DNA from: Pelagibacterales bacterium SAG-MED37
GTDB taxonomy: Bacteria > Pseudomonadota > Alphaproteobacteria > Pelagibacterales > Pelagibacteraceae
DNA: 64,000 nt
Assembly (NCBI GenBank): GCA_014653605.1
Contig: JACWEG010000001.1
Span: forward strand, 62,001 to 126,000
Direction: 5' to 3'
Shown here: one piece after another, positions 1,972 to 57,362 of the stretch
Position numbering within the stretch: the stretch's first letter is position 1
Layout: every line of letters begins with the position of its first letter
Translations under genes and position numbers: made by a program
Notes under the pieces: model-generated
The model's input: only the letters and a program-made list of their open reading frames with translations
The model's database searches: none
What the model was told of the DNA's origin: nothing

Positions 1972-3405
1972 ATGGAAAATAAAAAAAATTTTTATATAGA
2001 CGGTAAATGGGTAACAGCAATAAGCAAAGAAGAAATTAAAGTAATCAACCCTGCTACAGAAGAAGAATGTGCTGTAATATCATTAGGAAACAAAGAAGAT
2101 GTTGACTTGGCAGTAAACGCTGCAAAAAAAGCTTATAGTTCATGGGCATTTTCACCGAAAGAAGAAAGAATATTATTATTAGAAAAACTTTATGAGAATT
2201 ATAAAAAAAGATGGGCAGATATTGCCAATGCAATTACTGATGAAATGGGTGCTCCAAAAGACTTTGCTACAAAACTTCAAGCTGGAACAGGTGCCGCTCA
2301 TTTAAAGTCTTTTATTAGGTATTTAAAAAATTTCGAATTTGAAAAACCATTAGGTGAACATGCTCCAAACCAAAGACTTATCTATGAACCAAAAGGAGTT
2401 TGTGCATTAATAACACCTTGGAATTGGCCAATGAACCAAGTTTGCTTAAAAGTTATGCCTGCAATAGCTTCTGGATGCACAATGGTTTTAAAACCATCAG
2501 AACTTGCGCCATTATCATCAATGATTCTTGCTGAATTGATAGATGATACCAAATTTCCTGCAGGAGTGTTCAATTTAGTTAATGGAGATGGAGCCACAAC
2601 AGGCGATGCACTAACAAGCCACCCGGATATAAATATGATTTCTTTTACAGGATCAACTAGAGCAGGAGCTTTAATCTCTCAAAATGCTGCTAAAGATTTT
2701 AAAAGAGTGAGTTTAGAATTAGGAGGCAAAGGTGCTAATATTATTTTTAAGGATGCTGACCCTGAAGCAATTGAAAGAGGTGCGTTAAGATGTTTTAGAA
2801 ATTCAGGTCAATCATGTAATGCTCCTACAAGAATGCTAGTAGAGAAATCTATGTATAGTGATGCAATAGAAAGATTGAAAAAATATACAGAAAATTTTGA
2901 GGTAGGTGACCCTAAAAAAGAAGGAGAGCATATAGGCCCAGTGATTTCTGAAACTCAATATAATAAAATTCAAACTTTAATTAAAAAGGGAATTGATGAA
3001 GGTGCTAAATTAGTTGCAGGTGGACCAGGTAAACCACCAGGACTAGACAAAGGCTATTTTGTTAAACCCACTGTATTTGCAGATGTAAATAATAATATGG
3101 AAGTCGCAAGAACAGAAATTTTTGGACCAGTATTATCGGTAATTCCATTTGAAACCGAAGAAGAAGCAATTGAAATTGCCAATGACACACCTTATGGATT
3201 AACAAACTATATTCAAACCAAAGACTCAGAAAAAGTAAAAAGAGTTGCGAGAAAGCTTAGATCAGGAATGGTTGATGTAAATGGAGCTGGTATTGCAGTT
3301 GATGCTCCATTTGGAGGTTTTAAACATTCAGGAATTGGTAGAGAAGCCGGTGAACATGGCCTTGAGGAATTTTTGGAAGTAAAATCTGTGGGTGGCTGGA
3401 GTTAA
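1972..3405 (+). CDS. NAD(P)-dependent aldehyde dehydrogenase
   Basis: PWNWPMNQ, FTGSTRAG, LELGGKGANI, GQSCNAPTR, EIFGPVLSV motifs. Confidence 0.9.
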   Translation: MENKKNFYIDGKWVTAISKEEIKVINPATEEECAVISLGNKEDVDLAVNAAKKAYSSWAFSPKEERILLLEKLYENYKKRWADIANAITDEMGAPKDFATKLQAGTGAAHLKSFIRYLKNFEFEKPLGEHAPNQRLIYEPKGVCALITPWNWPMNQVCLKVMPAIASGCTMVLKPSELAPLSSMILAELIDDTKFPAGVFNLVNGDGATTGDALTSHPDINMISFTGSTRAGALISQNAAKDFKRVSLELGGKGANIIFKDADPEAIERGALRCFRNSGQSCNAPTRMLVEKSMYSDAIERLKKYTENFEVGDPKKEGEHIGPVISETQYNKIQTLIKKGIDEGAKLVAGGPGKPPGLDKGYFVKPTVFADVNNNMEVARTEIFGPVLSVIPFETEEEAIEIANDTPYGLTNYIQTKDSEKVKRVARKLRSGMVDVNGAGIAVDAPFGGFKHSGIGREAGEHGLEEFLEVKSVGGWS

Positions 3406-20626: not shown

Positions 20627-20649
20627 ATACTTCCTTTTCTAATAATTTT

Positions 20650-26292: not shown

Positions 26293-26335
26293 CTTTTATA
26301 AATATTTAGATTTATATTATATAAATATCTATGTG

Positions 26336-26364: not shown

Positions 26365-26393
26365 ATTAAGATTAACTAGTACTAGGAGGAATA

Positions 26394-27359
26394 ATGAAAA
26401 ACAAACTACCGTTAATTATCGGTGCGATTGTTGTCATAGCGGGTCTTGCTTTCTTCATGGGTGGAGGAGACAAATCTGCAAAAAAATCAGGCAGCGACAG
26501 TGCTGAACCTATAGTTATTGCAACTCATAACTGGTCAAGCCAAGTGGTTATGGCTCATGTTATCGGGGGAATTTTAGAATCTATGGGTAACAATGTAAAA
26601 TATGTACCAGCAGATTCACAAGCTGTTTACGAGTCAATTAGAATTGGTGATGTAACATTAGCCCACGAAGTTTGGGAATCAGCTTTTGGTAAATCTTTTG
26701 ATACTGCTAGAGAAAAGGGTGGTGTATTAGACTGGGGTGATCATGAAGCAAGAACAATTGAGGATATGGGTTATCCTGATTGGGCAGCTAAATATTGTCC
26801 AGGCCTACCAGACTGGAATGCTTTAAAAAGTCCAGACTGTGCTAAAGCGTTTGCTACACCAGACTCTGGTGGAAAAGGACGTATGTTAGAAGGTCCACAA
26901 AGCTGGCATGGAGATCTAATCCCTCAGAGAATAGAAGCTCTTGGATTAGGTGACTTATGGACTGTTAAGTTTGCTGGTGGTGCAGATGCATTGTGGGCAG
27001 AACTTAAAGCAGCTGAAGCTGAAGGAAGAGGAACTATTATCTTTAACTGGACACCAAACTTTACAGATGGAAAAGGATTTACTTTTATTGATTTTCCACC
27101 GTACTATGATGGTTGCAGACCAGTTGATGGTGGTGATGGTAAATGTGGAGCTCCAGATGGTTACTTGAAAAAAGCCGTTAATGAGAACTTCCCAAAAACT
27201 CATCCTAATGCAGCAGCAATGTACAAAAAATTATCATTTAACACTAGTCAAATTGGAGCAATGGCTGCTTTAGTTGACGAAGATAAAATGACTCATGAAG
27301 ATGCTGCTAAAAAATGGTTAGCTGATAACAAAAGTGTTTGGGAGAAGTGGACTAAGTAA
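26394..27359 (+). CDS. proX: Glycine betaine/proline/TMAO-type ABC transporter substrate-binding protein (ProX/OpuAC/TmoX family)
   Basis: N-terminal signal/TM; THNWSSQVVMAHVIGGILESMG, WESAFGKSFD, WTPNFTD quaternary-amine-binding family pattern. Confidence 0.85.
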   Translation: MKNKLPLIIGAIVVIAGLAFFMGGGDKSAKKSGSDSAEPIVIATHNWSSQVVMAHVIGGILESMGNNVKYVPADSQAVYESIRIGDVTLAHEVWESAFGKSFDTAREKGGVLDWGDHEARTIEDMGYPDWAAKYCPGLPDWNALKSPDCAKAFATPDSGGKGRMLEGPQSWHGDLIPQRIEALGLGDLWTVKFAGGADALWAELKAAEAEGRGTIIFNWTPNFTDGKGFTFIDFPPYYDGCRPVDGGDGKCGAPDGYLKKAVNENFPKTHPNAAAMYKKLSFNTSQIGAMAALVDEDKMTHEDAAKKWLADNKSVWEKWTK

Positions 27360-27390
27360 CCACTTTCTTTAAACCATAAATAAATTAGAT

Positions 27391-27424
27391 TCTCCCCTAG
27401 TTTTACTAGGGGGGATTTTTTTTT
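27391..27424 (+). terminator. Rho-independent terminator after proX
   Basis: TCTCCCCTAG-TTTTA-CTAGGGGGGA stem followed by a T run. Confidence 0.85.
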
Positions 27425-27448
27425 AAATTTAATATATTTTATTTTTAG

Positions 27449-27826
27449 ATGAAAAAAATTTTAACATATATCTTTTTGAGCTTAATAATTTCAAATACGA
27501 GTTTTGCGAAAAAGTCGGGTTGTACAGATGGCGATTGTAATAATGGATTTGGAACCTGGACTTATACGGATAAGACAACTTATGTTGGGCAATGGCAAAA
27601 TGGTTCAAAAAAAGGAAAAGGTATTGAGACTTGGCCTAATGGGTATGTCTATGAAGGTGAATTTAATGATAGTAAATGGCATGGTGAAGGAACTTTAAAA
27701 TTTCCAGATGGATCTTCTTACAGTGGAGAATGGAAAAATAATAAGATGCATGGAAAAGGAATTTTTAAATGGTCAGATGGAAAAGTAATTGAGGGAACAT
27801 GGAAGGAAGGGGATTATGTTAAGTAA
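27449..27826 (+). CDS. Secreted MORN-repeat protein
   Basis: Signal peptide plus about four MORN repeats (YVGQWQNGSKKGKGIETWPNGYVYEGEFNDSKWHGEGTLKFPDGSSYSGEWKNNKMHGKG). Confidence 0.8.
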   Translation: MKKILTYIFLSLIISNTSFAKKSGCTDGDCNNGFGTWTYTDKTTYVGQWQNGSKKGKGIETWPNGYVYEGEFNDSKWHGEGTLKFPDGSSYSGEWKNNKMHGKGIFKWSDGKVIEGTWKEGDYVK

Positions 27827-28340
27827 GTTCAATCAATTTCCAGAAAGTTTCAAAGGATTGATAGGATTGACATGTTTAACAATAATAATTTTTTTTACTT
27901 TTTTAATACTTAATATTTTTTTTGGACCAGATAAAGATGCTGAATTGAAAATTGCTGAACAAAAAAAAGTACAAGAAGAAGCAAATGAATTGATAGCATC
28001 GTTACCAAGAGGTGTTTTAACATTCTATAAATCTGAAAAAGGGCAACAATTATCAGCAGATGAATATAAGATGATTTGCATCAATACAAAAATAATTACA
28101 CAAAGAGCAATAATGGGGGCCAACATTATTGATAATGACGCATTTGATTTATACACAGCTAATGGTGGAACAACTGGAAAATATTCAGTAAATTGGGACG
28201 AAAGTCAGAATAGATGTTTTGCTAAATTTACAGTCAAGCCATTATCTGGTTCTTCCAAATCTGTAATAGTTGAAGGTGAAGCTTTAGGCTTTTTAAAAAC
28301 TAGTATTGATACAAGGGTTTATTTTATTAAGAATTTTTAA
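27816..28340 (+). CDS. Membrane-anchored hypothetical protein
   Basis: Start re-assigned from 27789 to in-frame ATG 27816 (MLSKFNQFPESF...), overlapping the MORN stop; one TM segment. Confidence 0.6.
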   Translation: MLSKFNQFPESFKGLIGLTCLTIIIFFTFLILNIFFGPDKDAELKIAEQKKVQEEANELIASLPRGVLTFYKSEKGQQLSADEYKMICINTKIITQRAIMGANIIDNDAFDLYTANGGTTGKYSVNWDESQNRCFAKFTVKPLSGSSKSVIVEGEALGFLKTSIDTRVYFIKNF

Positions 28341-28386
28341 TGGAGTATTTAATAATAATAATAGTATAAATATATAGAATATAAAT

Positions 28387-29424
28387 ATGACAACAACACC
28401 TGTAATTAAATGTGAGTCTGTCTATAAAATATTTGGAGCAAATGCAGAAAAAATGCTTCAAAATTCAAATGGCAATGTAGATGCAAAAATATTTCAAGAT
28501 GCAGGTTGTATTGTAGGGGTTAACAATGCTTCTTTTGAAGTATCAAAAGGAGAAATGTTAGTTGTAATGGGTTTATCTGGTTCTGGTAAATCAACTCTAC
28601 TGAGATGTATTTCACGATTAACTGATGCTACAGGTGGAAAAATTTTTATCGAAGGTCAAGACTTGTTAGCAATGAATGATAAGCAATTAATTGAGTTAAG
28701 AAGAAGTAAAATGGGTATGGTTTTTCAAAGTTTTGCATTACTTCCTCATAAAACTGTTTTAGAAAATATTGCGTTTCCACTTCAAATTAAAGGAGGTGAA
28801 ACTGATGACAGTATTAAAAAAGCTATGGAGATGGTTGAATTAGTAGGTTTAAAGGGAAGAGAAAATTATTTTCCTAGAGAATTATCTGGAGGTCAACAAC
28901 AGAGAGTTGGTATTGCACGATCATTAGCTGTTGAACCAGATATATGGTTTTTAGACGAACCTTTTTCTGCATTGGATCCACTTATAAGAAAAGAGATGCA
29001 AGATGAATTTTTAAGACTCCAAGGGGTTTTAAATAAAACAATTCTTTTTATTACACATGACTTTGATGAAGCACTAAGACTTGCTGATAGAATAGCTATT
29101 ATGAAAGATGGTTTAATTGAACAACTGGATACTCCAGCAAATATTGTTTTGAGTCCAAAAACTGAATATGTGAGAAAATTTACAGAAGAAGTACCAAGAG
29201 AAAAAGTATTAAAGATAGAATCAATAATGGATAAATCTGTAAATGAAAAAGATAAAAATATGATTAGTGTTTCTAAAGATGCAATTATTGAAACAGTAGC
29301 AGAAAAAATATTGAGTCAAGAAAACTCAGTAAACGTTTTAGATGCAAACAATAATATAGTTGGAAGTGTTAAACCATCAAAGATAATTCAAACAGTTTTT
29401 AGAACTGGAAAAGAAAAGTCGTAA
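28387..29424 (+). CDS. proV: Quaternary-amine ABC transporter ATP-binding protein (ProV/OpuAA family)
   Basis: Walker A GLSGSGKSTL, LSGGQQQRVGIARSLA, LDEPFSALDPL, C-terminal CBS-like region. Confidence 0.92.
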   Translation: MTTTPVIKCESVYKIFGANAEKMLQNSNGNVDAKIFQDAGCIVGVNNASFEVSKGEMLVVMGLSGSGKSTLLRCISRLTDATGGKIFIEGQDLLAMNDKQLIELRRSKMGMVFQSFALLPHKTVLENIAFPLQIKGGETDDSIKKAMEMVELVGLKGRENYFPRELSGGQQQRVGIARSLAVEPDIWFLDEPFSALDPLIRKEMQDEFLRLQGVLNKTILFITHDFDEALRLADRIAIMKDGLIEQLDTPANIVLSPKTEYVRKFTEEVPREKVLKIESIMDKSVNEKDKNMISVSKDAIIETVAEKILSQENSVNVLDANNNIVGSVKPSKIIQTVFRTGKEKS

Positions 29425-29430
29425 TATTCT

Positions 29431-31554
29431 ATGGAAATAATTAAGAAATATCCAAAAGCTATCCAATGGTTCTTTTTATTTATTATTTTTTTTGGTTTAT
29501 GTTTTGCCATTCAAATACCAGAGGGGTATGAGTTTGCAAAAGCTGGAACTGAATTTATTGATAAAGATAAGTTAGACCAAACTAAGTATAGTGTTTTTTG
29601 GAGATTGCCGGCCTTTATTGCTTGGATGCCAGGATGGATAAATGACTCTGTATACTTTTTATTAAATGAGTGGTTTCCAATTGAATACTTTGACTCCAGT
29701 ATTCAAGAAACAAAATCTAGACCATTGGTTCTACATATAACAAGATTAATTTCTAGTTCTATGCTTTTTTTAATCCAATTTATTCGTGAAATTTTAATTG
29801 GTGGAGTTGATACTATAGTTGCTTTTACAAGTTGGGATTTTTTAAGTGCAAATCCTTGGGCAAAGTTACCAGGTTTACCTTGGACAATTGTTGCTGGTGG
29901 AGCAGTCTTACTAGGTTACAAACTTAGTGGAAAAAATTTAGCAATATTTGCTGCGATAACCATGATATTCATTTCTGCTTTTGGCCAATGGAAGCCATCT
30001 ATGCAAACTTTATCATTTGTATTGGTTGCAGCACCAATTTCTTTTGCTTTAGGTCTTGGTTTTGGAGTTTGGGCATATAGAAGCAAAAGAGTAGAAAATA
30101 TTTTAAATCCTCTTTTGAATGTTGCTCAAACCATGCCTCATTATTCATATCTTGTACCAATAATGGTTTTATTTGGAATAGGTGATCATGCTGGAGCAAT
30201 AGCAACAATTATTTTTGCAACACCTCCAATGGTTAGACTAACTTTACTAGGTCTAAGAAAAGTATCTCCTGAAGTTATTGAAGCAGGTAAGATGAGCGGC
30301 TGTACAGATTATCAATTGTTATCTGAAGTTTTAATTCCAACTGCAAGAAGAGATATTTTAATAGGTGTCAATCAAGTTATAATGCAATGTTTAGCAATGG
30401 CTGTAATAGCCTCGTTTATAGGTGCAAAAGGTCTGGGGTGGAATTTGCTACTTGCATTAAATCAATTAAGAATTGGTTTGGCACTTGAGGCGGGTGTGTG
30501 TATTACTTTGATAGCAGTTTTATTGGATAAACTGTCATTAGCATGGGCAAATAAACAAAAAAACTATTTTGAAAATCCAACAGATTTTGAGAAAAATAAG
30601 TATCTTTATATATTTGGTGGAGTTGTTATTGCTGGATATCTACTTTCTTTTATAGGGACCTTCCTTTTTAAAGAAGGTTTTAACTATTTTTTTATTGTTC
30701 CGCACAATAAAGGTATTTCTACTGAGGCATTCTGGAATGCAGGAGTAGATTGGGTTTTAGCTAATTTTTTTGATACACTCAAAATTTTCAATACTTGGCT
30801 AATAGTAGATGTCTTAATTCCTATGAAAAATGCATTTTTGAGAATGCCAATTGTTGCTACATTTATTTTATTTATGGGTGCAGGTTATATAATTGGAGGA
30901 ATTAGATCTGCATTAGTTATTGGAAGCTTTACTTTGTTTATAGCTTTAACAGAATGGTGGGACAGAGCGTTAATAACAATGTACATGGCAACTTTTGGTG
31001 TTTTAGTTTCAGGAATTCTTGGAATAACAATTGGTACTTTAAGTGCTCAAAATAAAACTAGCTCAAGAATAGCTATAGGTGTGTGTGACACTCTCCAAAC
31101 TTTCCCATCTTTTGTTTATTTAATTCCAGTTATAATGCTCTTTGGAGTAACAGATACATCTGTTCTTATTGCCGTTGTAGTTTATGCAACAATTCCTGCA
31201 ACAAGATACACTATTGAAGGGCTAAGAAGTGTACCTTCTGCTCTACATGATGCTGGATCTATGTCTGGAGTAACTCGATTACAAAGATGGATAAAAATAG
31301 AACTACCACTTGCGTTTCCACATATGATGTTAGGAATTAATCAAACAGTCGTATTTGCATTATTTATGGTAATCATTGGTGCAATGATTGGAACAACAGA
31401 TTTAGGACAGTATATTCTAAAAGCTTTATCTGACAGGCAAGGAACTGGTAACGGCTTAATGTTAGGATTATGTGTTGCTTTTATAGGCTTAGCTGTTGAT
31501 AATTTAATTAGAACTTGGGCAGATCAAAGAAAAAAACTTCTAGGAATTGAATAG
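29431..31554 (+). CDS. proW: Quaternary-amine ABC transporter permease, two tandem permease domains (ProW/OpuAB family)
   Basis: 707 aa with two copies of the permease signature (LLGLRKVSPEVIEAGKMSGCT and IEGLRSVPSALHDAGSMSGVT). Confidence 0.9.
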   Translation: MEIIKKYPKAIQWFFLFIIFFGLCFAIQIPEGYEFAKAGTEFIDKDKLDQTKYSVFWRLPAFIAWMPGWINDSVYFLLNEWFPIEYFDSSIQETKSRPLVLHITRLISSSMLFLIQFIREILIGGVDTIVAFTSWDFLSANPWAKLPGLPWTIVAGGAVLLGYKLSGKNLAIFAAITMIFISAFGQWKPSMQTLSFVLVAAPISFALGLGFGVWAYRSKRVENILNPLLNVAQTMPHYSYLVPIMVLFGIGDHAGAIATIIFATPPMVRLTLLGLRKVSPEVIEAGKMSGCTDYQLLSEVLIPTARRDILIGVNQVIMQCLAMAVIASFIGAKGLGWNLLLALNQLRIGLALEAGVCITLIAVLLDKLSLAWANKQKNYFENPTDFEKNKYLYIFGGVVIAGYLLSFIGTFLFKEGFNYFFIVPHNKGISTEAFWNAGVDWVLANFFDTLKIFNTWLIVDVLIPMKNAFLRMPIVATFILFMGAGYIIGGIRSALVIGSFTLFIALTEWWDRALITMYMATFGVLVSGILGITIGTLSAQNKTSSRIAIGVCDTLQTFPSFVYLIPVIMLFGVTDTSVLIAVVVYATIPATRYTIEGLRSVPSALHDAGSMSGVTRLQRWIKIELPLAFPHMMLGINQTVVFALFMVIIGAMIGTTDLGQYILKALSDRQGTGNGLMLGLCVAFIGLAVDNLIRTWADQRKKLLGIE

Positions 31555-36279: not shown

Positions 36280-37536
36280 ATGCAAAAATACTCAATATTT
36301 AATCTGATTAAAAATGCTTTTTCCAATCATCAAAAATGGGATTTAGCTTGGAAAGATCCAACACCTAAGAAAGAGTACGATGTTGTCATTATTGGAGGTG
36401 GAGGCCATGGGCTAGCAACTGCATATTATTTAGCAAAAGAGCACAATATTACAAATGTTGCAATTATAGAAAAGGGATGGATTGGTGGAGGAAATGTTGG
36501 ACGTAATACAACAATAATTAGATCAAATTACATGCATGATGATAATGCATTGTTTAGTGAATTTGGAATGGATCTTTGGAGAAAGATGAGCCAAGATTTA
36601 AATTATAATGTGATGTTTTCCCCAAGAGGGATTATTAACTTAGCTCATTCAGATGCACAAATGAATGTTTATGCAAGACGAGGAAACTCGATGAGGTTGA
36701 ATGGTATTGATGCAGAATTATTAAACAGAGAACAAGTAAGAGAAATTATTCCAATGGCTGACTTTTCTGAGAACGTCAGATTTCCAATTTTTGGTGGACT
36801 CATGCAGCCTAGTGCAGGAACAGCAAGACATGATGCAGTAGCATGGGGTTATGCTAGACAAGCCGATTCTATGGGTGTGGATATAATTCAAAATTGTGAA
36901 GTAATAGGTTTTGATATTTCAGGAGGAAAAGTAGAAGGTGTTCGAACTTCTAGGGGAGATATTAAGGTTAAAAAAATTGGATTATGTGTTGCTGGCAGTA
37001 CTAATATTTTAGCTGACAAACTTAATATGACTTTACCTATTGAAACTCATCTTCTTCAAGCATGTGTTTCAGAACCAGTTAAACCAGTTTTAGATAGAGT
37101 GGTTACTTTTGGTGCTGGCCATTTTTATATAAGTCAATCAGATAAAGGTGAAATGGTTATGGGTGGAGACTTAGATGGATATAATAGTTATGCTCAAAGA
37201 GGAAATTTACCAACACTTCAGCATGTACTTACTGAAGGAATAGCAATGATGCCATTCTTAAGTAAATTAAAAATGCTTAGGACATGGGGTGGAATTATGG
37301 ATATGTCGATGGATGGTTCACCTATTATTGACAAAACTCACATTGAAGGTTTGTATTTGAATTGTGGTTGGTGTTATGGTGGGTTCAAAGCTACTCCAGC
37401 ATCTGGTTGGACATTTGCACATACTATTGCTCAAGATAGAGTTCATGAATTAAACGCAGGATATAACCTAAATAGATTTAATACAGGCCACTTACTTGAT
37501 GAAAAGGGTCTTGGCACAAAAACTTGGATTTCATAA
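36280..37536 (+). CDS. soxB: Sarcosine oxidase beta subunit (or N-methylglutamate dehydrogenase homologue)
   Basis: DVVIIGGGGHGLATAYYLA, GGNVGRNTTIIRSNY; followed by soxD, soxA, soxG. Confidence 0.9.
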   Translation: MQKYSIFNLIKNAFSNHQKWDLAWKDPTPKKEYDVVIIGGGGHGLATAYYLAKEHNITNVAIIEKGWIGGGNVGRNTTIIRSNYMHDDNALFSEFGMDLWRKMSQDLNYNVMFSPRGIINLAHSDAQMNVYARRGNSMRLNGIDAELLNREQVREIIPMADFSENVRFPIFGGLMQPSAGTARHDAVAWGYARQADSMGVDIIQNCEVIGFDISGGKVEGVRTSRGDIKVKKIGLCVAGSTNILADKLNMTLPIETHLLQACVSEPVKPVLDRVVTFGAGHFYISQSDKGEMVMGGDLDGYNSYAQRGNLPTLQHVLTEGIAMMPFLSKLKMLRTWGGIMDMSMDGSPIIDKTHIEGLYLNCGWCYGGFKATPASGWTFAHTIAQDRVHELNAGYNLNRFNTGHLLDEKGLGTKTWIS

Positions 37537-37806
37537 ATGCTTCATATTAAATGTCCACATTGTGGAATGAGATCACAAAATGAATTTTCTTATGGTGGTG
37601 ATGCAACTGTTAAAAGACCTGAGCTAGGTAAAGAAATATCTGATCATGACTGGGATAATTTTGTTTACAATAGAAAAAGTTTAAGAGGAAAACATTTAGA
37701 ATTATGGCAACATTTATCAGGATGTAGACAATGGATAAAAGTTGAAAGAGATACTGCTACTCATGAAATATTTAGAACATCAAAAGCTAATGAGGATAAT
37801 TCGTAA
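37537..37806 (+). CDS. soxD: Sarcosine oxidase delta subunit
   Basis: Zn-binding start LHIKCPHCGMRSQNEFSYGGDA, WQHLSGCRQW. Confidence 0.93.
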   Translation: MLHIKCPHCGMRSQNEFSYGGDATVKRPELGKEISDHDWDNFVYNRKSLRGKHLELWQHLSGCRQWIKVERDTATHEIFRTSKANEDNS

Positions 37807-40802
37807 TGGATCAAAATTTTCGATTATCAGATGGTGGTTTAATAAATAGAGATAAAAAGTTATCATTTAAGTTTAATAGTAAAACTTATTATGGTTTTGA
37901 AGGAGATACTCTAGCCTCAGCTTTAATAGCTAATGGTGTTCATTTAATTGGTAGAAGCTTTAAATACCATAGACCAAGAGGATTTTTTGGTGCTGGTGTC
38001 GATGAGCCATATGCAATAGTTCAGCTATATAGAAATGGTGAAACTGAACCAAACATAAAAGCCACAGAACAGGAGCTTTTTGAGGGTTTAGAAGCAACAA
38101 GTGTAAATTGTTGGCCAAGTGTTAACTTTGATATCGGAGCAATAAACAACTTTTTAAAAATATTTCTTCCTGCTGGATTTTATTACAAAACATTTATGTG
38201 GCCAAAAAGTTTTTGGTATAAAGTTTATGAACCTTTTATTAGGAAAGCAGCAGGTCTTGGTGTTGCATCAATCAAACATGATAAAGAAAGATACGAACAT
38301 AAATATGAATATTGTGACTTATTAATTGCTGGTTCAGGACCATCAGGTTTAGCAAGTGCATATGCTGCAGCAAAAAATGGGGCACGAGTAATTTTAGCTG
38401 AAGATAAAGCTAGATTTGGTGGAACACTTCTTACAAGCGAAGTAAATATTGGAAATAAATCAGGTAAAGAGTGGGCTGAAGGAATAATTGCTGAACTTAA
38501 AGAAATGCCTAACGTAACAGTTAGAAATAGATCTCAGGTTTTTGGCTATTACGATCATAACATGCTGGTGATGTCTGAAAGAATTAGCGATCATCTTTCA
38601 AAGACAAAAAAATTTCATCCAAAACAAAGACTTTGGTACATTAGAGCAAAAGAAGTTCTGATTTCTTCAGGATCAATTGAAAGACCAATAGTATTTGGTA
38701 ACAATGATACCCCAGGAGTAATGCTTTCATCAGCAGCAAAAGAATACTTAAAAGTTTATGGAGTATTAGTTGGAAGAAACCCTTTAATTTTTACTAACAA
38801 TGATAGTGGATATGAAACAGCAATTGAATTTAAGAAAAACGGTGTTGATCCAACTATCTTAGATACAAGAAAAGATCCTCAATCTGAAATAATCAACGAA
38901 GCAAAGAATTTAGGAATAAACATTAAGTTTTCATATGTAGTAGTAGCTGCTCAAGGTTATAAAAAAGTAAAATCAGCTGATATTGCAAAAATTTCAGATG
39001 ATAAAGAGCAACTTGGATCAGTTGAAAATATAAAGTGTGACTGCATTTGTGTTTCTGGTTTTTGGACACCGACAATTCACTTAGCTTCACAATCTGGAAA
39101 TAAAACAAAATTCAACGAAGAAATTGATGCATTTGTACCAGGAATATCGAAACAAAATGAAACAACATTGGGTGCAGCGAATGGATCTTATACTTTAGAA
39201 GGGACTTTAAAAAACTCTTTTGAAACCGCTTATGAGTTATCAAAAAAAATTACTAACAATACTAATAAAATTTCTTTACCAAATGTTGTTGAAAAAAAAT
39301 CAACGACACATGATAAATTTTGGTGTGTACCATTACCTAAAGGAAAGAATTACAAAAGATTTTTAGATTTTCAAAATGATGTTGCAGTTTCTGACATAGA
39401 AATTGCATTAAAGGAGGGTTATCGATCAATTGAACATGTAAAAAGATACACCACTCTTGGAATGGCTACTGATCAAGGTAAAACGAGCAACTTAAATGGT
39501 TTACAATTAGTATCGAATATTGAAAATAAAGTAGTACCAAATGTTGGTCACACAACTTTTAGACCTCCATATACGCCAGTTTCAATAGGTGCAATTGTTG
39601 GAAGAGAAATAGGAAAACATTCAAAACCTACAAGAAAATCTCCAATGCATAAATGGCATGAACAAAATAATGCGATATTTGTAGATGCAGGTGTGTGGTT
39701 AAGACCAAGATATTATAAACAAGGAAATGAAAATTTATTTGAAGCGTCTAAGAGAGAAGCAAAAAATGTGAGAACAAATGTAGGTGTATGTGATGTAACT
39801 ACCTTAGGTAAAATAGATATTAAAGGACCAGATGCAGCAGAACTACTTAATAGAGTTTATACAAATGCTTGGCTAAAGTTACCAGTGGGTAAAGCAAGAT
39901 ACGGGGTTATGTTAAGAGAAGATGGAATTGTTATGGATGATGGAACAACTACAAGAATTTCAGAAAATCATTATCATATGACAACAACTACCGCTCAAGC
40001 TGCAAACGTTCTTTCACATTTAGAATATTATTTGCAATTAGTTTGGCCAGATTTAAATGTAAATGTAGTTTCAACTACAGAACAATGGGCAGGAGCAGCA
40101 GTCGCAGGGCCTAAATCCAGAGATTTATTGAAAAAATTATTCCCAAAATCTGATGTTTCAAACGAAGGGTTACCTTTTATGGGTTTCATTGAAGGAGACT
40201 TATTTGGTGTAAAAGCTAGAATTTTTAGAATTTCTTTCTCAGGTGAACTTGCATATGAGGTAAATGTTGAATCTGATAATGGAAACTTTATGTGGGAAAA
40301 AATTATTGAAATTGGGCAAGAATTTAAAATCCAGCCATATGGAACCGAGGCATTATCAACTCTTAGAATTGAAATGGGTCATGTTGCAGGATCAGAGTTA
40401 GATGGAAGAACAATTCCTTATGACAATTCTCTTGAAGGTTTATTAAGTAAAAAGAAGGACTTTATTGGCAAAAGATCTTTAACTAGAAAAGCATTTATAG
40501 CTGAAGATAGACAAAAAATTGTTGGGGTAGTTCCTTTAGATAAAAAAACAAGTATTCCAGAAGGGTCACATTTAGTTAAAGACTCGAATGCACCATTGCC
40601 AAATCCAAAATTAGGCTATATCTCAGCTTCATGTTGGAGTGTTGAACACGATAATCCATTTTCTCTAGCAATACTAAAGAATGGGAAAAATATGATCGGT
40701 GAAAAGTTATTTGTAATGTCGCCTCTTAAAAATAAAGTAATTCCAGTTGAGATTGTTTCTTCTCACTATGTTGATCCAAAAGGAGAAAGGGTTAGATCAT
40801 GA
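37806..40802 (+). CDS. soxA: Sarcosine oxidase alpha subunit
   Basis: 998 aa; 2Fe-2S-like N-term, FAD domain ([18 protein letters not shown]), GcvT C-terminus. Confidence 0.92.
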
Positions 40803-41386
40803 GTTTAATATCAGCTTTAACAAATGCTCATTCAATAGGTCAATTTGGTGATCATGAAGGCAAAAATGATAATAATCTTTTAAAAATTTCTGAAATAAAA
40901 AACTTACTAATAGTTCAAATAGTGCAGTATAAAAATTCTAAAGTTTCATTTGAAACTATTGACATTGATGGTTTAAGATTAAGAGAAAAACCATTAAGCG
41001 TATCATATAATAATGACACTAGAATTTTGTGGAACGGTCCAAAAAATTGGCTTTTGGTTTCAACAAAAAAAGATTTACTTAAAAATATTTCACAAAATTT
41101 TAAAGAAACAGATTTTGCTTTAACTGACTTATCTCATTCAAGAGCTATAATTCAATTAGAAGGACAAGAATCAAAGGAAGTATTGAAGAAAGGGTGTCCT
41201 TTTAATTTTAATGATTTAGAAAAAAACAATTCTATAAATTCTATATATAATGGAATAGCAATTACTATTGATATGTTGGAGGACAATCCAACTAAAGTAA
41301 GATTGTTTGCTCTCAGAAGTTTTGGAGAGTCTTTGTATCATTCAATAACAGATGCATCTTTAGAGTTTGGTTATAAATCAATTTAA
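40799..41386 (+). CDS. soxG: Sarcosine oxidase gamma subunit
   Basis: 195 aa, soxBDAG order; [39 protein letters not shown]. Confidence 0.82.
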
Positions 41387-46420: not shown

Positions 46421-47386
46421 ATGAAATTTAAAATAGATAATTTACAATACTGCAATTGGTCTAGAAAAATTTTTGAAATTAATAGAGAGGCTGGGCTTGA
46501 TGCAGTGCATGTGACAATAGTATATCATGAGGATTTTGATGAACATTTGAATGAAATCCAAAAATGGAAAAAATTATTTGAAGAAAACTCAGACTTAATT
46601 TTTCTTGGAAACAATTTTAAGGATATTGAGAAAGCTAATAAAGAAAAAAAAACAGCAATTTTTTTTGGATTTCAAAATTGTTCACCTATTGAGGATGATA
46701 TTAACTTAGTTGAAAAAGTTCATGAACTCGGATGTAGATTTATGCAACTAACTTATAATAATCAATCCTTATTGGCTACCGGATGTTATGAAAAGATTGA
46801 CAGTGGTGTAACAAATTTTGGCCGAGAAGTAATCAAAGAAATGAATAGAGTAGGTGTTGTCGTGGATATGTCTCATTCAGCAGAGAAAAGTACTTTTGAT
46901 GCAATAGAAATTAGTGAAAAACCAATTGCTATAACTCACGCTAATCCATCATTTTGGCACGCTGCTAAAAGAAATAAATCGTCAGAATTATTAAAAACTT
47001 TAAGTGATAGTGGTGGTATTCTAGGTTTATCTCTTTATCCGCATCATCTAAAAAATAATACAAATTGTACTTTGGAAAGTTTTTGTGAAATGGTAGCCAG
47101 AACAGCTGAAGTTATGAGTGTAAAAAATATTGGAATTGGTTCTGACCTTTGTTTAAATCAACCAGATGAAATTGTTGAGTGGATGAGAAATGGAACTTGG
47201 TCTAAAAGTAAAAATTATGGGGAGGGATCAAAAAATAAACCAGGTTTTCCAATTCAACCAAAATGGTTTGAAGATGCAAGAGGTTTTAAAAATTTAGAAA
47301 CAGGTTTAAAAAAAGTTGGATTTTCAGAGACTGAGACTGATGCAATACTTGGTAACAATTGGTATAATTTTTATAGAACTATTTAG
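46421..47386 (+). CDS. Membrane dipeptidase (renal dipeptidase, M19) family protein
   Basis: GVVVDMSHSAEKS, PIAITHANPS, IGIGSDLC, ILGNNWYNFYR. Confidence 0.85.
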   Translation: MKFKIDNLQYCNWSRKIFEINREAGLDAVHVTIVYHEDFDEHLNEIQKWKKLFEENSDLIFLGNNFKDIEKANKEKKTAIFFGFQNCSPIEDDINLVEKVHELGCRFMQLTYNNQSLLATGCYEKIDSGVTNFGREVIKEMNRVGVVVDMSHSAEKSTFDAIEISEKPIAITHANPSFWHAAKRNKSSELLKTLSDSGGILGLSLYPHHLKNNTNCTLESFCEMVARTAEVMSVKNIGIGSDLCLNQPDEIVEWMRNGTWSKSKNYGEGSKNKPGFPIQPKWFEDARGFKNLETGLKKVGFSETETDAILGNNWYNFYRTI

Positions 47387-47388
47387 AA

Positions 47389-49050
47389 ATGAATGTAGAA
47401 CTAAGAGATCCCAATATCATTATGAAGCTATCAAGGCTGGGTTCATTTCACCAATCTAGATTATCTTTTTTAAGAAGTTTTTTAAATGAATTTAAAGATT
47501 GGGATTATAGAAGAGATTTATTTGATTTAGATAAAGATGGATTTGGTACAGCAGTATATTCTTTTAAAAAAAAAGACAGAATTTATTCTTTAATTTGTTA
47601 CGCAAATAAAATCAATGATGATGAAAGATCAGATAGAGTAATAGCAACCAAGTGGGACGCAGCTTTTACATTGCATGATGGCGTGCCTTTAAAAGAAGAT
47701 ATTGAAAGATTAAGAAATGAAGTTCCAAAACAAGAAGTTGGTAGGCTTTCTTATAAAGAATTAACATTATCTAGAGCTAATAAATCTGTAAGAGTATTTG
47801 ATCATGTTGTTGAAAGTTTAAGTAATGGATTGCAACCAAATTTAGACTTGCTTGAAAAAGTGGGATATTTGTACAGAACAACAGCAGTATATGGATCAGG
47901 TAAGTTTGGTTTAGCAGATCGATTTAGAATTAAAAATAGAGAAGAAATTAACGGACCATTTAGATTAGAGATGATGCTGGTTTATCTAGTTAGACAATTT
48001 ACATTTGATCAAGTTAATCACGTAGCAAAAAATAGAAATCCTAAATCAGCTGTTAAACTTGATCCAAAAATTTGTAGAAATTTGGGAATTGGAAATTCAA
48101 CTGGATTAGGGATGGCCCCGTTTATTGTTAATCATCCAACATTACTTAATAATTGGATTCTTAGTAGAGAAGTTGCGCTCAAAAAAATAAGAGAAATTAA
48201 AATTGCTGAAACTCAAGATATAAGTTTGTTTCAAGAATGTGTCAAAAATTCTCTTAAAAATATTACTAGTTGGAACACAGAGAATGAATATCAACTTAAA
48301 AAGATAAAGCTTTTACTTAAGGACGTAAGAAAATTTATTCATTTTCTAGAAAATGAGTTTGATTTTAAAAAAGATTATCCATTTAATGAAATCTACCTTT
48401 GGCTAGAGAAAGAAACTTGTGAGGAGTGCATTGAGTATATTGTTTCAATAATGATGGAACCATTTGGTGAAATAGTTCAGCCTTTAATTAGTCAAATGAG
48501 CTCAGAAGAAGAAAAATACTTTAATATTCCTACTGAGCGAAATGTAGAAGACTTGAAGAAAATTTTAGAAAATAAGTATTCAGATATTCTGAAAATTGAT
48601 TTTAATAAAAAAGATAGTAATCAAAAATTTTGGTTTATTTCAAAAAACAAAGAAGAACCAAGATTAGCCAATCGTTTTGAAGAGAGTGGTGCAGATTTAG
48701 AACAACCTCTAGCAATAGCGAGAGATATAAAAAAACTATATGAAAGACTATTGTCTTTGAAAAATAATTTGAAAATTAATCAGTTTTTAATAGATAATTC
48801 TGATTTAAGACATGTTGTGAGAAGGGCTTTTATTATTGAAAACTTTCCATATTCAGAAATACAGGACAATACTATAGGAGAAAATATAGTACCAATTGAT
48901 ATGCTGCGATTGAAATTGTCTTTTTTTGGAGCTCTAAAATTTGACCCAAGATCTGACAAATGGCTAAGAATATGTATGTTTCAAGGTGCACCACTTCCAA
49001 ATGAATTAAAAGATTATGATGAGCAATGGGTTTATAAAACCTTCTCTTAA
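47389..49050 (+). CDS. Conserved hypothetical protein (553 aa), no family recognised
   Basis: Long intact ORF, 2 nt after the dipeptidase stop and 3 nt before the DUF3726 gene. Confidence 0.75.
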   Translation: MNVELRDPNIIMKLSRLGSFHQSRLSFLRSFLNEFKDWDYRRDLFDLDKDGFGTAVYSFKKKDRIYSLICYANKINDDERSDRVIATKWDAAFTLHDGVPLKEDIERLRNEVPKQEVGRLSYKELTLSRANKSVRVFDHVVESLSNGLQPNLDLLEKVGYLYRTTAVYGSGKFGLADRFRIKNREEINGPFRLEMMLVYLVRQFTFDQVNHVAKNRNPKSAVKLDPKICRNLGIGNSTGLGMAPFIVNHPTLLNNWILSREVALKKIREIKIAETQDISLFQECVKNSLKNITSWNTENEYQLKKIKLLLKDVRKFIHFLENEFDFKKDYPFNEIYLWLEKETCEECIEYIVSIMMEPFGEIVQPLISQMSSEEEKYFNIPTERNVEDLKKILENKYSDILKIDFNKKDSNQKFWFISKNKEEPRLANRFEESGADLEQPLAIARDIKKLYERLLSLKNNLKINQFLIDNSDLRHVVRRAFIIENFPYSEIQDNTIGENIVPIDMLRLKLSFFGALKFDPRSDKWLRICMFQGAPLPNELKDYDEQWVYKTFS

Positions 49051-49053
49051 ATT

Positions 49054-49665
49054 ATGAAATCTTTAAGTGAAATTGAGACAACAGTAAAAAGAGCAAGTAG
49101 AGCTGCTGGTTATTCGTGGGGCATAGCAGAAGAGGTTGGAAAATCTATAAGGTTATCTGAATTATTTGGTTTTCCAGGAATTAAACATCTTAATCAATAT
49201 TATCAAAATAAAAAAAAAAAAAATTTTGATGATATAAAATTAATTGATAAGATTAACAAATCAAAAGGGTTATCTTTTTGTCCAATCACTTTAGGTGTAA
49301 ATTTTATTGATCAAGTTAAGAACATAGAAACTTTAACAAAATTTTCAGTTGAAAAATTAGCTTATCCATTGTTGCTTTTGCCTTTTTTAAGTAGAGGTTC
49401 AGAAATTATTGGAAAAAAACTATTATTCTCATTTGATGATAGTAAATTTTTGTTAAATTTTAATGTGAGTATTTCCTCAAATTTTTGGAACAAAGAGATT
49501 CCAGTTTTAGCAAATCAAGTAGAAATAAGTTTCTTAAATAATGAAGATAATTTTTCTAATCAAGATTGGAAAAATCTTTACAAACTAGCTGAGGATACTT
49601 TTGTAGAGGAAACAGATAGTTTAAAGGAGGGTGCTGCAGGTGCTGGTTTGACTGATAATGATTGA
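49054..49665 (+). CDS. DUF3726-type protein
   Basis: N-term SLSEIETTVKRASRAAGYSWGIAEEVGKSIR and C-term EGAAGAGLTDND pattern. Confidence 0.65.
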   Translation: MKSLSEIETTVKRASRAAGYSWGIAEEVGKSIRLSELFGFPGIKHLNQYYQNKKKKNFDDIKLIDKINKSKGLSFCPITLGVNFIDQVKNIETLTKFSVEKLAYPLLLLPFLSRGSEIIGKKLLFSFDDSKFLLNFNVSISSNFWNKEIPVLANQVEISFLNNEDNFSNQDWKNLYKLAEDTFVEETDSLKEGAAGAGLTDND

Positions 49666-49816
49666 GGACAAAGAGATTGAAAAAAATTTAAAAGATTTAG
49701 ATGATGTATGTGATGAATGCAAAGAAGAGGATGAAAGTGTTTCTCAAAATTTAATTCTTATGGGATTTAAAATATGTAAATCCTGTAGAACTTCTAAAAC
49801 TATTTTTCCACTTTAA
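49658..49816 (+). CDS. CxxC...CxxC microprotein (52 aa), below ORF-track cutoff
   Basis: Manual translation MIEDKEIEKNLKDLDDVCDECKEEDESVSQNLILMGFKICKSCRTSKTIFPL*; overlaps DUF3726 gene by 8 nt; two CxxC knuckles. Confidence 0.6.
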   Translation: MIEDKEIEKNLKDLDDVCDECKEEDESVSQNLILMGFKICKSCRTSKTIFPL

Positions 49817-50355
49817 ATGTGATTAACTGGCAGCACATTCATTCTGCTCATGACAAAAGAAATTGATAAAAAAGCTATAATTAAGAAAGATAAAAACACT
49901 ATTCCAAATGATTTGAAGTTTGATTTAAGATTTAAAACTTGTTTTGTAGAAATTATTAGTCCAGCGAAAATCCAAAATTGAGTTAAGAAAATTATTGGTA
50001 TCATTAAATCGGGAGTGACAGCAAAAAATCTAAGTAAACCAGGTGCATGAGCAAAACCAACCGCAGTTAAAACTTTTTTAAAAGGAACTTTACTTTGTTT
50101 ATCTGGAAATAGTTTTACACCAATAACAAATATAAAAATCGCCCAAATAAACCAAGTTAAAATTGCTGTTAGACCAGACATTGCTACAGCTGTTTTAATT
50201 ACAGTATTGGCTGCAACAGCTCCTGCTATCCCATCTAAAATCATAATCAAACCTGCAAAATATATTGAGGCTTCACCAAAATTTTTATTATCACTATAAA
50301 GAGATTTATCTAATTTTATAGATTTTAAAATTATACCAAGAAACTCACCAAACAT
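49813..50355 (-). CDS. Yip1-like multi-TM membrane protein
   Basis: Several TM segments; IYFAGLIMILDGIAGA, KVPFKKVLTAVGFAHAPGLL pattern of the Yip1 clan. Confidence 0.6.
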   Translation of the reverse strand: MFGEFLGIILKSIKLDKSLYSDNKNFGEASIYFAGLIMILDGIAGAVAANTVIKTAVAMSGLTAILTWFIWAIFIFVIGVKLFPDKQSKVPFKKVLTAVGFAHAPGLLRFFAVTPDLMIPIIFLTQFWIFAGLIISTKQVLNLKSNFKSFGIVFLSFLIIAFLSISFVMSRMNVLPVNHI

Positions 50356-50501: not shown

Positions 50502-51860
50502 TTAGCCTTTAACTACTTCTCTTGTATTAGCATTGAATGATTCCTTAAATGGAATATCAACTATTACTGCATCTACTGGTGCCCCCGCTTTGTCAGAATA
50601 TTTTTCAGGTAGATGAATTTTATACTTAGTACCAACTTTACCCTTAGGAAATCCATTTGGATTTAATGTTCCATCAAAAGGGACATATCCCATTGCAATA
50701 TTAGTTTTTTTCTCTGGATGATACCAAGGAGAAGTTAGAAATCCTACAGGATCTCCTCCATCTTCATTTGAAATTAACCAAAAATCTGGTGCATAATCTT
50801 CAATTGGTTTTCCTCCCAATTCAAGACCTACCAATTGTAGTTTATAGGGTTTTTTTCCAGCTTTAAGTTCACCTTTCATTTTTTCTAGAGCAGCTTTACC
50901 AACATAATCAGCTTTCTTATTCCACTCTCCTTTACCAGATAGTGAAACTTGGTAACCTAAATTACATTGGAAAGGATTATGTTGTTGATCCATATCTTGT
51001 CCCCAAGAAAGAATTCCTGCTTGAATTCTTCTATGATGAGCTGGCGCTATAACCATTAGATTATGTTTTTTTCCTGCATCTAAAACTGCATTCCACATAT
51101 CTTCAGCGTACAAAGTTGCATCTCTTAAATATATTTCATATCCCGCTTCACCTGAGAAACCTGATTGCGAAATAACACAACTTCTACCGCCAACCTTAAC
51201 TTCAGCTAGTCCATAAAATGGCATATTGTCAAAATCGACTTGATCTCCACAAAGATCTTTCATCAAAGCTTTAGACTTTGGACCTTGAATTTGAACAGGA
51301 CAAGCATCTATTTCTTCAACTGTACAATTAAATCTTTGATCAGCATTTACTCCTTGTAAATACATACCAATATCTGAGTCAGATAAAGAAAACCAAAATT
51401 CATCTTTAGAAATTCTTAATAGAATTGGATCATTTAAAACTCCACCGTATGCATTACATAAAATTACGTATCTTGCTCTCATAGGAGAGATCTTAGTTGC
51501 ATCTCTTGTTATTACATAGTCTGTAAACTTTTCTGCATCTGGACCTTTAACTCTAATTTGTCTTTCAACAGCAACATTCCACATGGTTACATGATTTACA
51601 ATTGCATCATATTCTACCATTGCTCCACCATCTTCTGGTTTTACATATCCTCTTGGGTGATAAATACGATTATATACAGTTGCTCTCCAACAACCTGCTT
51701 GCATTGATAAATGCCAATAAGGTGATTTCCTTACTCTTGTTGAAATTAACATTTCAACTTTTGTTGGCCCACTTTGTCTTAGATTATATGGTACTTCTCG
51801 ATCAGATTGATCAACAGAGGTAACATGTTTTAATTTAGTATAGTCAAACTCTTTAGACAT
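50502..51860 (-). CDS. GcvT-family THF-dependent demethylase (LigM/aminomethyltransferase-like)
   Basis: 452 aa; VTMWNVAVERQIRVKGPDAEKFTDYVITRD, QIQGPKSKALM, SGFSGEAGYEIYL; adjacent to a MetF-like gene. Confidence 0.78.
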   Translation of the reverse strand: MSKEFDYTKLKHVTSVDQSDREVPYNLRQSGPTKVEMLISTRVRKSPYWHLSMQAGCWRATVYNRIYHPRGYVKPEDGGAMVEYDAIVNHVTMWNVAVERQIRVKGPDAEKFTDYVITRDATKISPMRARYVILCNAYGGVLNDPILLRISKDEFWFSLSDSDIGMYLQGVNADQRFNCTVEEIDACPVQIQGPKSKALMKDLCGDQVDFDNMPFYGLAEVKVGGRSCVISQSGFSGEAGYEIYLRDATLYAEDMWNAVLDAGKKHNLMVIAPAHHRRIQAGILSWGQDMDQQHNPFQCNLGYQVSLSGKGEWNKKADYVGKAALEKMKGELKAGKKPYKLQLVGLELGGKPIEDYAPDFWLISNEDGGDPVGFLTSPWYHPEKKTNIAMGYVPFDGTLNPNGFPKGKVGTKYKIHLPEKYSDKAGAPVDAVIVDIPFKESFNANTREVVKG

Positions 51861-52581
51861 AACTATTCTCCTTCAACCACTTGTTAGTTTCCTTCAAGCC
51901 GCCGAATGTATAAATGTGGAAAAAATCAGTATGCGATTTAACTTTCCCAATTAAATCATTAGGGTCTTTAGGTTTTAATAAATCTAACGCCTTACTAAAA
52001 TTAGATTTAAGAAAATTTAAGGAATTTTTTGCTCCAACAATATTAGCAAATTTTATTAAGCTAGATATTTTAAGAGGGCCAGTAATTCCCACATGCACTG
52101 GTACGCTTTGTTTAGAAATAAAATCTATAATAGGCTGAGGATCTAATAACCATTGGGTTACAATATAATCAGCATAAGGCTTCTTATCTATCATAGCTTT
52201 TTCTAAATCTGAGTCGGATATATCAGGACTCCCCTCGGGGTGTCCAGCAATTCCTATCTTCATTTTTTCAAAATAACCTGTTTCTAAAAGTTGAAATGAG
52301 CTATCAAATTTTCCCATTGGCTCTCTACCACCACCAATAATCAAAGCTTGTTTTACTCCTCCATCTTTACATCTTAAAACATAGTCTTTTAACTCTTTTT
52401 CATTTTGCATAGATCTAGCTGGAAAGTGAGGTACAGGATTAAATCCCTTTTTAACAAGTTCAATAGCTTTTTGAGCAGTCTCTTTATAATCTCCTCCTGG
52501 CAACATAGTAATATAAACATCACTTACTAGAGGGATAGTTTCTATTTCGGTGTTAGGACCAATTTCTAAAGAAAAGTTCAT
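51853..52581 (-). CDS. Methylenetetrahydrofolate reductase-like protein
   Basis: VYITMLPGGDYKETAQKAIELVKKGFNPVPHFPARS, IGIAGHPEGSPD, YIVTQWLLDPQPIIDF. Confidence 0.78.
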   Translation of the reverse strand: MNFSLEIGPNTEIETIPLVSDVYITMLPGGDYKETAQKAIELVKKGFNPVPHFPARSMQNEKELKDYVLRCKDGGVKQALIIGGGREPMGKFDSSFQLLETGYFEKMKIGIAGHPEGSPDISDSDLEKAMIDKKPYADYIVTQWLLDPQPIIDFISKQSVPVHVGITGPLKISSLIKFANIVGAKNSLNFLKSNFSKALDLLKPKDPNDLIGKVKSHTDFFHIYTFGGLKETNKWLKENSYV

Positions 52582-55436: not shown

Positions 55437-55621
55437 CGATTAAAAATATTTTAATCGTTATATTTATATTTGTAGGTTTATATGTAGTTTTAGATTTTAG
55501 AGACCATAATTTTAAAAGAGCTATAGACGCTTGTATTGCTGGAAGTAAAAAGTTGGATAAACCAATGACTACTCAGCAAGCAAAAGAGTTTTGTGAAGAT
55601 CAGATTAATAAAGATAAGTGA
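55433..55621 (+). CDS. Small single-TM hypothetical protein
   Basis: 62 aa, N-terminal TM; 4-nt overlaps with both flanking genes. Confidence 0.6.
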   Translation: MTIKNILIVIFIFVGLYVVLDFRDHNFKRAIDACIAGSKKLDKPMTTQQAKEFCEDQINKDK

Positions 55622-56994
55622 TGAATGATTTAGAAAAAACAAATAATACTTGTTGTGGTCCTGGTTATGCTAGTCCGTCTGAAGCAATTAAAGCACCTAA
55701 TGAAAAACTTTTATATACAATAGCTATTTACACTGGAACAGGAATTCAAAAACCTGATTATCTTGCAACTGTAGATGTTGATCCAGATAGTCCAACTTAT
55801 TCAAAGGTTATTCACCGTTTAGAAATGCCAGGGATTGGAGATGAATTACATCATATGGGATGGAATGCATGCTCTTCATGTCACGGTGATGCAGGAATGA
55901 GCAGAAAATATCTTTTAGTACCAGGTGTTAGATCAAATAATATTCATATAATAGATACAGCAACAGATCCATTTGCTCCAAAAATTCACAAAGTAATTAA
56001 AGGCTCAGAAATAAAATCTAAAACTAATTTGTCAGGACCACATACGGTTCATTGTCTAGGATCTGAAATTATTATTTCTTTTCTTGGTAATGCCAAGGGT
56101 GAAGCTCCTGGTGGATACTTGCATCTTAACAAAGATTTCGAAATTGTTGGAAGATGGGAAAACTCAATGGGAGATATCCCTTTTAGCTATGATTTTTGGT
56201 ATCAGCCACGTCACAACGTGATGGTAAGTTCAGAATGGGCTGCACCTAATACTTTTATGCCAGGCTTTGATTTGGAAGAAGTAGGACACTTAAAATATGG
56301 ACGAAGGCTTCATATCTGGGATTTTAAAAAAAAAGAACCAATTGAATCAATGTATCTTGGTGAGGATGGTCTAATACCATTGGAAGTAAAATTTAAGCAT
56401 GATCCTGATAGCACTCATGGATTTTGTGGGGCAGCACTCAGTTCTAACGTTATTCATTTTTGGAAATCCAAAGAGGGAAAGTGGGAGTGGGAAAAAGTTA
56501 TAGATGTCAATAATGAACCTCACCCAGATTGGCCTATACCTATTCCTGGTGTAATGTCTGCAATTCTAGTTTCAATGGATGATAAATATCTTTATTTAAA
56601 TAACTGGCTTCATGGAGACATGAGGCAATACGATATAACAGACCCACACAAACCAAAATTAACTGGACAAGTATGGATTGGTGGACTTTTAGGCAAAGCA
56701 CCAATTATTAATGGAGTAAAAATTGCAGGCGGTCCCCAAATGTACCAATTATCTTTAGATGGTAAACGAATGTACGTAACAACTTCTCTATTTTCAACTT
56801 GGGATAATCAATTTTATCCTAACATAAGAACACAAGGCGGCGCTATGGTTATGATTGACTGCGATGTTGAAAATGGTGGTATGAAAATTAATAAAGATTT
56901 TATAGTTGATTTTGGTAAAGAACCTAATGGCCCAAGTAGATGTCATGAAAGTAGATATCCGGGTGGAGATTGTACAAGTGATATATGGCTGTAA
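55618..56994 (+). CDS. Selenium-binding protein SBP56 / methanethiol oxidase family protein
   Basis: GWNACSSCHGDAGMSRKYLLVPG, SGPHTVHCLGSEIIISFLGN, EPNGPSRCHESRYPGGDCTSDIW family signatures. Confidence 0.88.
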   Translation: MMNDLEKTNNTCCGPGYASPSEAIKAPNEKLLYTIAIYTGTGIQKPDYLATVDVDPDSPTYSKVIHRLEMPGIGDELHHMGWNACSSCHGDAGMSRKYLLVPGVRSNNIHIIDTATDPFAPKIHKVIKGSEIKSKTNLSGPHTVHCLGSEIIISFLGNAKGEAPGGYLHLNKDFEIVGRWENSMGDIPFSYDFWYQPRHNVMVSSEWAAPNTFMPGFDLEEVGHLKYGRRLHIWDFKKKEPIESMYLGEDGLIPLEVKFKHDPDSTHGFCGAALSSNVIHFWKSKEGKWEWEKVIDVNNEPHPDWPIPIPGVMSAILVSMDDKYLYLNNWLHGDMRQYDITDPHKPKLTGQVWIGGLLGKAPIINGVKIAGGPQMYQLSLDGKRMYVTTSLFSTWDNQFYPNIRTQGGAMVMIDCDVENGGMKINKDFIVDFGKEPNGPSRCHESRYPGGDCTSDIWL

Positions 56995-57362
56995 AGAAAA
57001 TTACTATTATCAATCGTAAAAATAAAACTTTTGAGGTCTCAGACCGAAAACCCTTGCTACAAGAATTACGTGCTCAAGGAGTTGATCTTCCCTATGGATG
57101 TGAATATGGAGGCTGTATAACTTGTGCAGCAAAACTTATTAATGGTGAAGTAGATCAACGTTCTCAAGTAGCTTTAAACAATAGACAAATTAACAATGGT
57201 TATGTTGTTTTATGTGTTGCTCGACCAAAAACTGATTGTGAAATTGAAATTGGAGTTGAAAGTCACGATAAACTCTACCGCAATCCTTTTCTTGACCCAC
57301 TTGCACCACATGAGTTAAAAGCTGATATTGCAACTCAAAAAAATATTAAAAAGAATAAGTAA
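56985..57362 (+). CDS. Plant-type 2Fe-2S ferredoxin
   Basis: CEYGGCITCAAKLINGEVDQRSQ...VVLCVARP Cys pattern. Confidence 0.9.
   Translation: MAVKKITIINRKNKTFEVSDRKPLLQELRAQGVDLPYGCEYGGCITCAAKLINGEVDQRSQVALNNRQINNGYVVLCVARPKTDCEIEIGVESHDKLYRNPFLDPLAPHELKADIATQKNIKKNK

Follow-up and report, generated by a model that had tools for sequence, protein, structure and literature searches.

The 64,000-nucleotide stretch analysed here (the window) contains four nearly contiguous genes encoding an M19-family protein, a 553-aa protein (U553), a DUF3726 protein and a CxxC microprotein, and raises the question of whether these genes act together and, if so, on what. An earlier note on this DNA had described them as a functionally coupled block and as a candidate for an undescribed step in methylated-amine or amide metabolism. 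The ORF coordinates given there were confirmed, as were the gaps of 2 nt between M19 and U553 and 3 nt between U553 and DUF3726 and the 8-nt overlap between DUF3726 and the CxxC ORF (Table 1). The four-gene order recurred at about 80 SAR11 loci, mostly with 2–3 nt gaps, and the CxxC ORF, with four conserved cysteines, was present in 78/78 SAR11 module loci examined; all four ORFs were therefore considered genuine genes. The closest related loci belonged to Pelagibacteraceae single-cell genomes, with protein identity of up to 97 %.

Table 1. Features of the window discussed in the text
Feature	Position	Strand	Basis
M19-family protein, renal-dipeptidase-like, altered metal site	46421..47386	+	PF01244, E 7e-72
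U553 (553-aa protein), module core, predicted catalytic partner of DUF3726	47389..49050	+	outside known families
DUF3726 protein, reduced Ldh_2 relative, obligate U553 partner	49054..49665	+	PF12525, E 7e-22
CxxC...CxxC microprotein, 52 aa, outside module, adjoins membrane-protein gene	49658..49816	+	family distribution
SoxBDAG-type heterotetrameric oxidase genes (sarcosine oxidase/N-methylglutamate dehydrogenase type), candidate downstream step	36280..41386	+	TIGR01373/TIGR01372 above cut-off
Aldehyde dehydrogenase (ALDH), candidate stand-in for the operon ALDH of other clades	1972..3405	+	orthologue in G569/L210

Three of the four genes form an evolutionary unit

A survey of 289 evenly drawn alphaproteobacterial genomes identified U553 in 39 and DUF3726 in 32; all 32 of the latter also carried U553, with DUF3726 directly downstream of it (Fisher p 4e-36 over the 289 genomes, phylogeny ignored). 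M19 was located within 9 kb in 59/64 of the neighbourhoods inspected, so that the synteny survey suggested in the earlier note did reveal co-occurrence of all three genes. In two SAR11 genomes (L202 and L215), only 78–103 bp separated purE from the CxxC gene and exactly M19-U553-DUF3726 was missing, whilst in four SAR11-family genomes (L208, L209, L210 and L216) the same three genes were relocated yet still together. These data show that M19-U553-DUF3726 is a true evolutionary unit of three genes rather than four.

The CxxC gene was carried by 89/147 sampled SAR11-family genomes, compared to 46/147 for U553, often at other places, and was separate from the module in G577, G564 and G569. Where context was visible, it usually faced a YIP1-like membrane-protein gene (49813-50355 in the window). 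It is thus an independent resident gene of SAR11 and a bystander to the module, and because it belongs to a separate conserved context the functional unit comprises three genes; the coupling originally proposed for four genes holds for M19, U553 and DUF3726 only. A role for the CxxC protein as a metal subunit of the module was likewise ruled out by its genome distribution. Its C-terminal motif reads SVxQNLILxGFKxCxSCRxSKTIFP.

Outside the alphaproteobacterial survey, the U553 family was found in 168 plasmid records, in Gammaproteobacteria and in one haloarchaeon, and carriage of the module extended over marine and some soil bacteria. A search of viral contigs for U553 relatives returned none.

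Protein families of the module

The M19 protein belongs to Peptidase_M19 by sequence, scoring 242.6 bits against a Pfam cut-off of 26. The reference metal ligands of this family are H20, D22, E125, H198 and H219 of the human enzyme. Human H198, H219 and D288 were retained as H152, H173 and D242, but the bridging ligand E125 corresponded to Q85, a Gln shared by 24/24 orthologues, and LQY stood in place of the HxD motif, the N-terminal part being aligned only via relatives and the solved structure 2i5g. The binuclear metal-ligand set of M19 dipeptidases was therefore incomplete and, because the bridging Glu and the HxD motif are lost, the protein is probably not a dipeptidase; judging from its sequence, it probably acts as an amide or imine hydrolase. 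The name 'M19 dipeptidase' is thus correct as to family and misleading as to activity. The best PDB relative was 2i5g, an 'amidohydrolase' (E 5e-58) with the same altered metal site, which we take to be the Pseudomonas aeruginosa M19 protein of the dimethylglycine cluster.

Several lines of evidence connected DUF3726 to the Ldh_2 family, which includes malate/lactate, ureidoglycolate and delta1-piperideine-2-carboxylate dehydrogenases. A gammaproteobacterial DUF3726 protein (L189) matched Ldh_2 (PF02615) directly and above cut-off (E 1.3e-10), the match covering profile positions 1-138 only, and profile comparison of the two families with hhalign gave E 3e-5 and a probability of 73. The AF2 model of DUF3726 was confident (pLDDT 85, pTM 0.76), and its top 21 Foldseek matches were all Ldh_2 enzymes, with probability up to 0.99, a best E of 0.011 and TM-scores of 0.4–0.5. 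Whilst the N-terminal region and fold are common to both, DUF3726 proteins are about 200 aa long (203 aa here) as opposed to about 335 aa in Ldh_2, and the catalytic SHG motif, present in 11/14 operon-type Ldh_2 proteins, was absent from 30/30 DUF3726 proteins. As judged from sequence and predicted structure, DUF3726 is related to the Ldh_2 dehydrogenases but reduced in size and devoid of the catalytic SHG. None of the papers searched names it.

The earlier note had recognised no motif in the 553-aa protein, and this stood: U553 had no match in Pfam, NCBIfam or PDB, including when searched as a profile, and showed no recognisable cofactor motif in the Pfam and profile searches. Pfam likewise returned nothing above threshold for the CxxC protein. 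Comparison with hhalign indicated no relationship of U553 to Ldh_2 or to DUF3726. The AlphaFold and Foldseek check that had been suggested yielded an unreliable model (pLDDT 62, pTM 0.39; alignment of 77 SAR11 sequences) with no meaningful matches, and no known family emerged. About 30 residues, rich in Arg, Gly and Trp, were nevertheless invariant across 23–79 % identity. U553 is a widespread family without a Pfam or NCBIfam model. In L138, L139 and L195, an additional U553 paralogue was present in another context, accompanied by a short partner gene, and the P. inhibens plasmid record likewise contains a second U553-like locus.

Genetic company of the module in other genomes

Across alpha- and gammaproteobacteria, a recurrent gene order was evident, consisting of a LysR gene, ALDH, M19, a BCCT or ProXWV transporter, U553, DUF3726 and either Ldh_2 or RidA. 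Ruegeria TM1040 carried LysR, ALDH, M19, a BCCT transporter, U553, DUF3726 and Ldh_2, adjoined by soxBDAG and an AraC-type gene; the pairing of soxBDAG with an AraC-type gene matches the published mgdABCD operon of Ruegeria pomeroyi, which adjoins the AraC-type gene tmaR (PMC13390433). The same module core was present beside DMSP demethylation genes in Phaeobacter inhibens DSM 17395 (M19, PGA1_RS19005; U553, PGA1_RS19010; DUF3726, PGA1_RS19015), with ProXWV in Aminobacter and with BCCT and RidA in Pseudomonas MPC6. The nearest solved relative of the Ldh_2 partner was delta1-piperideine-2-carboxylate reductase (1wtj, E 5e-53), and the ALDH partner best matched models of 2,5-dioxovalerate/alpha-ketoglutaric semialdehyde dehydrogenase, below their cut-offs.

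Divergent versions were found in the haloarchaeon Natrinema and in Sinorhizobium meliloti. On S. meliloti pSymB (L115), a U553 homologue of ~25 % identity was accompanied by M19, an aminotransferase, a succinate-semialdehyde dehydrogenase and two RidA genes; this version represents a second U553 subfamily, probably with another substrate. As the partners differ on this branch, the U553 family may act on several substrates. Trigonelline was considered as the substrate of the pSymB homologue and ruled out, since S. meliloti needs pSymA to grow on this compound (PMC4207669).

No ALDH, Ldh_2 or BCCT gene adjoined the module in the SAR11 window, and SAR11 homologues of these were only ~30–36 % identical to the operon-type proteins. 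Gene arrangements in other SAR11-family genomes linked the module to genes situated elsewhere in the window. In G573/L216, a single operon comprised soxB-soxD-soxA-soxG-M19-U553-DUF3726, with a 4-nt overlap between soxG and M19, and its soxBDAG genes were orthologues of those in the window. In G569/L210, the order was ProXWV-M19-U553-DUF3726-ALDH, and this ALDH was the orthologue of the window ALDH (76 % identity), from which we infer a functional link of the latter to the module. SoxA-type genes (E < 1e-200) were present in 37/39 U553-positive and 75/250 U553-negative genomes, and soxBDAG/mgd-type genes adjoined the module or shared its operon in several genomes, the models being unable to separate mgd from sox.

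Proposed function and alternatives

We propose that M19-U553-DUF3726 forms the core of a catabolic pathway for an N-methylated osmolyte of the betaine type, with homarine (N-methylpicolinate) as the likeliest substrate, leading towards N-methylglutamate and glutamate; we regard the chances of this reading as roughly even. Co-inheritance of ALDH, betaine transporters, Ldh_2 and soxBDAG/mgd was observed, whilst the order of steps follows from chemical reasoning. BCCT or ProXWV would import the substrate, and U553, assisted by DUF3726 in the role of a non-catalytic subunit derived from Ldh_2, would open the N-methylpyridinium ring to an N-formyl-N-methyl aldehyde. The ALDH would then oxidise this aldehyde, the M19 protein would hydrolyse the amide with release of formate, the Ldh_2 enzyme would reduce the methylimine of 2-oxoglutarate to N-methylglutamate, and Mgd (SoxBDAG type) would demethylate this to glutamate. 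If the homarine ring were opened and one carbon released as formate, the methylimine of 2,5-dioxovalerate would result, and the action of ALDH and Ldh_2 on it would yield N-methylglutamate, on which Mgd acts. Relatives of delta1-piperideine-2-carboxylate reductase reduce imines, N-methyl imines included. In this SAR11 genome, other loci would need to provide the ALDH and Ldh_2.

The homarine operon published in 2026 is reportedly homABCDER, and its five genes and one regulator would correspond to the ALDH, M19, U553, DUF3726, Ldh_2 and LysR genes of the module operons; compared to it, this SAR11 locus has only three of those genes together. A further point of comparison is the trigonelline pathway of Acinetobacter, in which tgnABCD open the ring to give an N-formyl aldehyde, oxidise the aldehyde and hydrolyse the amide, analogous in logic to the steps proposed here. 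In contrast to that pathway, neither a TgnA-type flavin monooxygenase nor a TgnB reductase was recognised in the module operon, U553 and DUF3726 match no such family, and the product of the module would remain an N-methyl amino acid. R. pomeroyi, which is related to bacteria that carry the module, uses up homarine within hours (PMC12817926). Mgd takes part in homarine catabolism in environmental bacteria, through a conserved pathway published in 2026 (cited in PMC13390433), and the published pathway may be this module. The suggestion of an undescribed step in methylated-amine or amide metabolism was sound in its direction, since the betaine transporters, soxBDAG/mgd, imine-reductase-type Ldh_2 and ALDH point to N-methyl amine or betaine catabolism, but 'undescribed' is doubtful in light of the published homarine pathway.

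A P. aeruginosa dipeptidase gene in the dimethylglycine operon, which the earlier note mentioned, was borne out by the literature: in both P. aeruginosa and Vibrio natriegens, dgcAB-fixAB follows a predicted dipeptidase gene (pepD) and a hypothetical gene (PMC12093977). As proposed for the module, an M19-family gene here stands among genes for N-methyl amine catabolism, although no U553 or DUF3726 is reported there. It lends some weight to a less probable reading, in which the substrate of the module is a different betaine-type osmolyte or some other N-methyl compound (for example a proline-type betaine, a side product of glycine betaine/dimethylglycine, or a DMSP-linked compound) and the M19 protein has the role of pepD beside dgcAB. 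The BCCT/ProXWV transporters, the DMGDH-like genes near the module in about 10/64 loci and the DMSP demethylation genes of P. inhibens also agree with this reading. However, a recurrent Ldh_2 imine-reductase-like gene and ALDH misfit simple demethylation of glycine betaine, dimethylglycine or DMSP, and DMSP genes lie next to the module in few genomes only. Amongst six annotated records viewed, none showed a gene annotated as dgcAB beside M19 (annotation labels only).

The resemblance of DUF3726 to an Ldh_2-derived pseudo-enzyme and the absence of a recognisable cofactor motif in U553 would also suit a complex that acts alongside osmolyte catabolism as a sensor, chaperone or metabolite binder and is not itself a pathway enzyme. 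We consider this improbable, as the invariant residues of U553 resemble an active site and no other operon gene is an obvious candidate for the first attack on a quaternary pyridinium or betaine substrate. Within the homarine reading, it is tentatively suggested that U553 with the DUF3726 pseudo-dehydrogenase could constitute an enzyme of a new type, able to dearomatise an N-methylpyridinium ring and open it, and that M19 could be a re-purposed, metal-site-altered amidase removing the N-formyl group, both in very abundant marine bacteria.

If U553 initiates breakdown of an abundant phytoplankton osmolyte, SAR11 would be tied to a specific flux of carbon and nitrogen, and the U553-DUF3726 gene pair would serve as a metagenomic marker. 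If the published hom genes prove to belong to the module families, the pathway is known, and what is new is the occurrence of a three-gene form in SAR11, the derivation of DUF3726 from Ldh_2 and the changed metal site of M19. The latter two features correct 'DUF' and 'dipeptidase' labels that would mislead pathway prediction.

Other genes in the window

The Rieske, GcvT-type demethylase and DMGDH-like genes to which the block had been linked are present nearby, but the association of the Rieske and demethylase genes with the block is one of synteny within SAR11, and they are not general companions of the module. A conserved pair encoding a GcvT-fold (LigM/DmdA-like) demethylase and a short MetF-like protein (50502-52581, minus strand) adjoins the module site in most SAR11 loci and is also kept in genomes without the module. 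Further downstream (55618-57362) is a gene for an SBP56 family protein, whose family membership suggests a methanethiol-oxidase type, and behind it lies a 2Fe-2S ferredoxin-like gene. On the other side, positions 17006-31554 comprise, as assigned solely by reading the sequence, an apparent TMAO/methylamine region with a glutamine synthetase (GS)-like gmaS, glutamate-synthase-like genes (mgs-type), a Tdm-like demethylase and a ProXWV-type ABC transporter.
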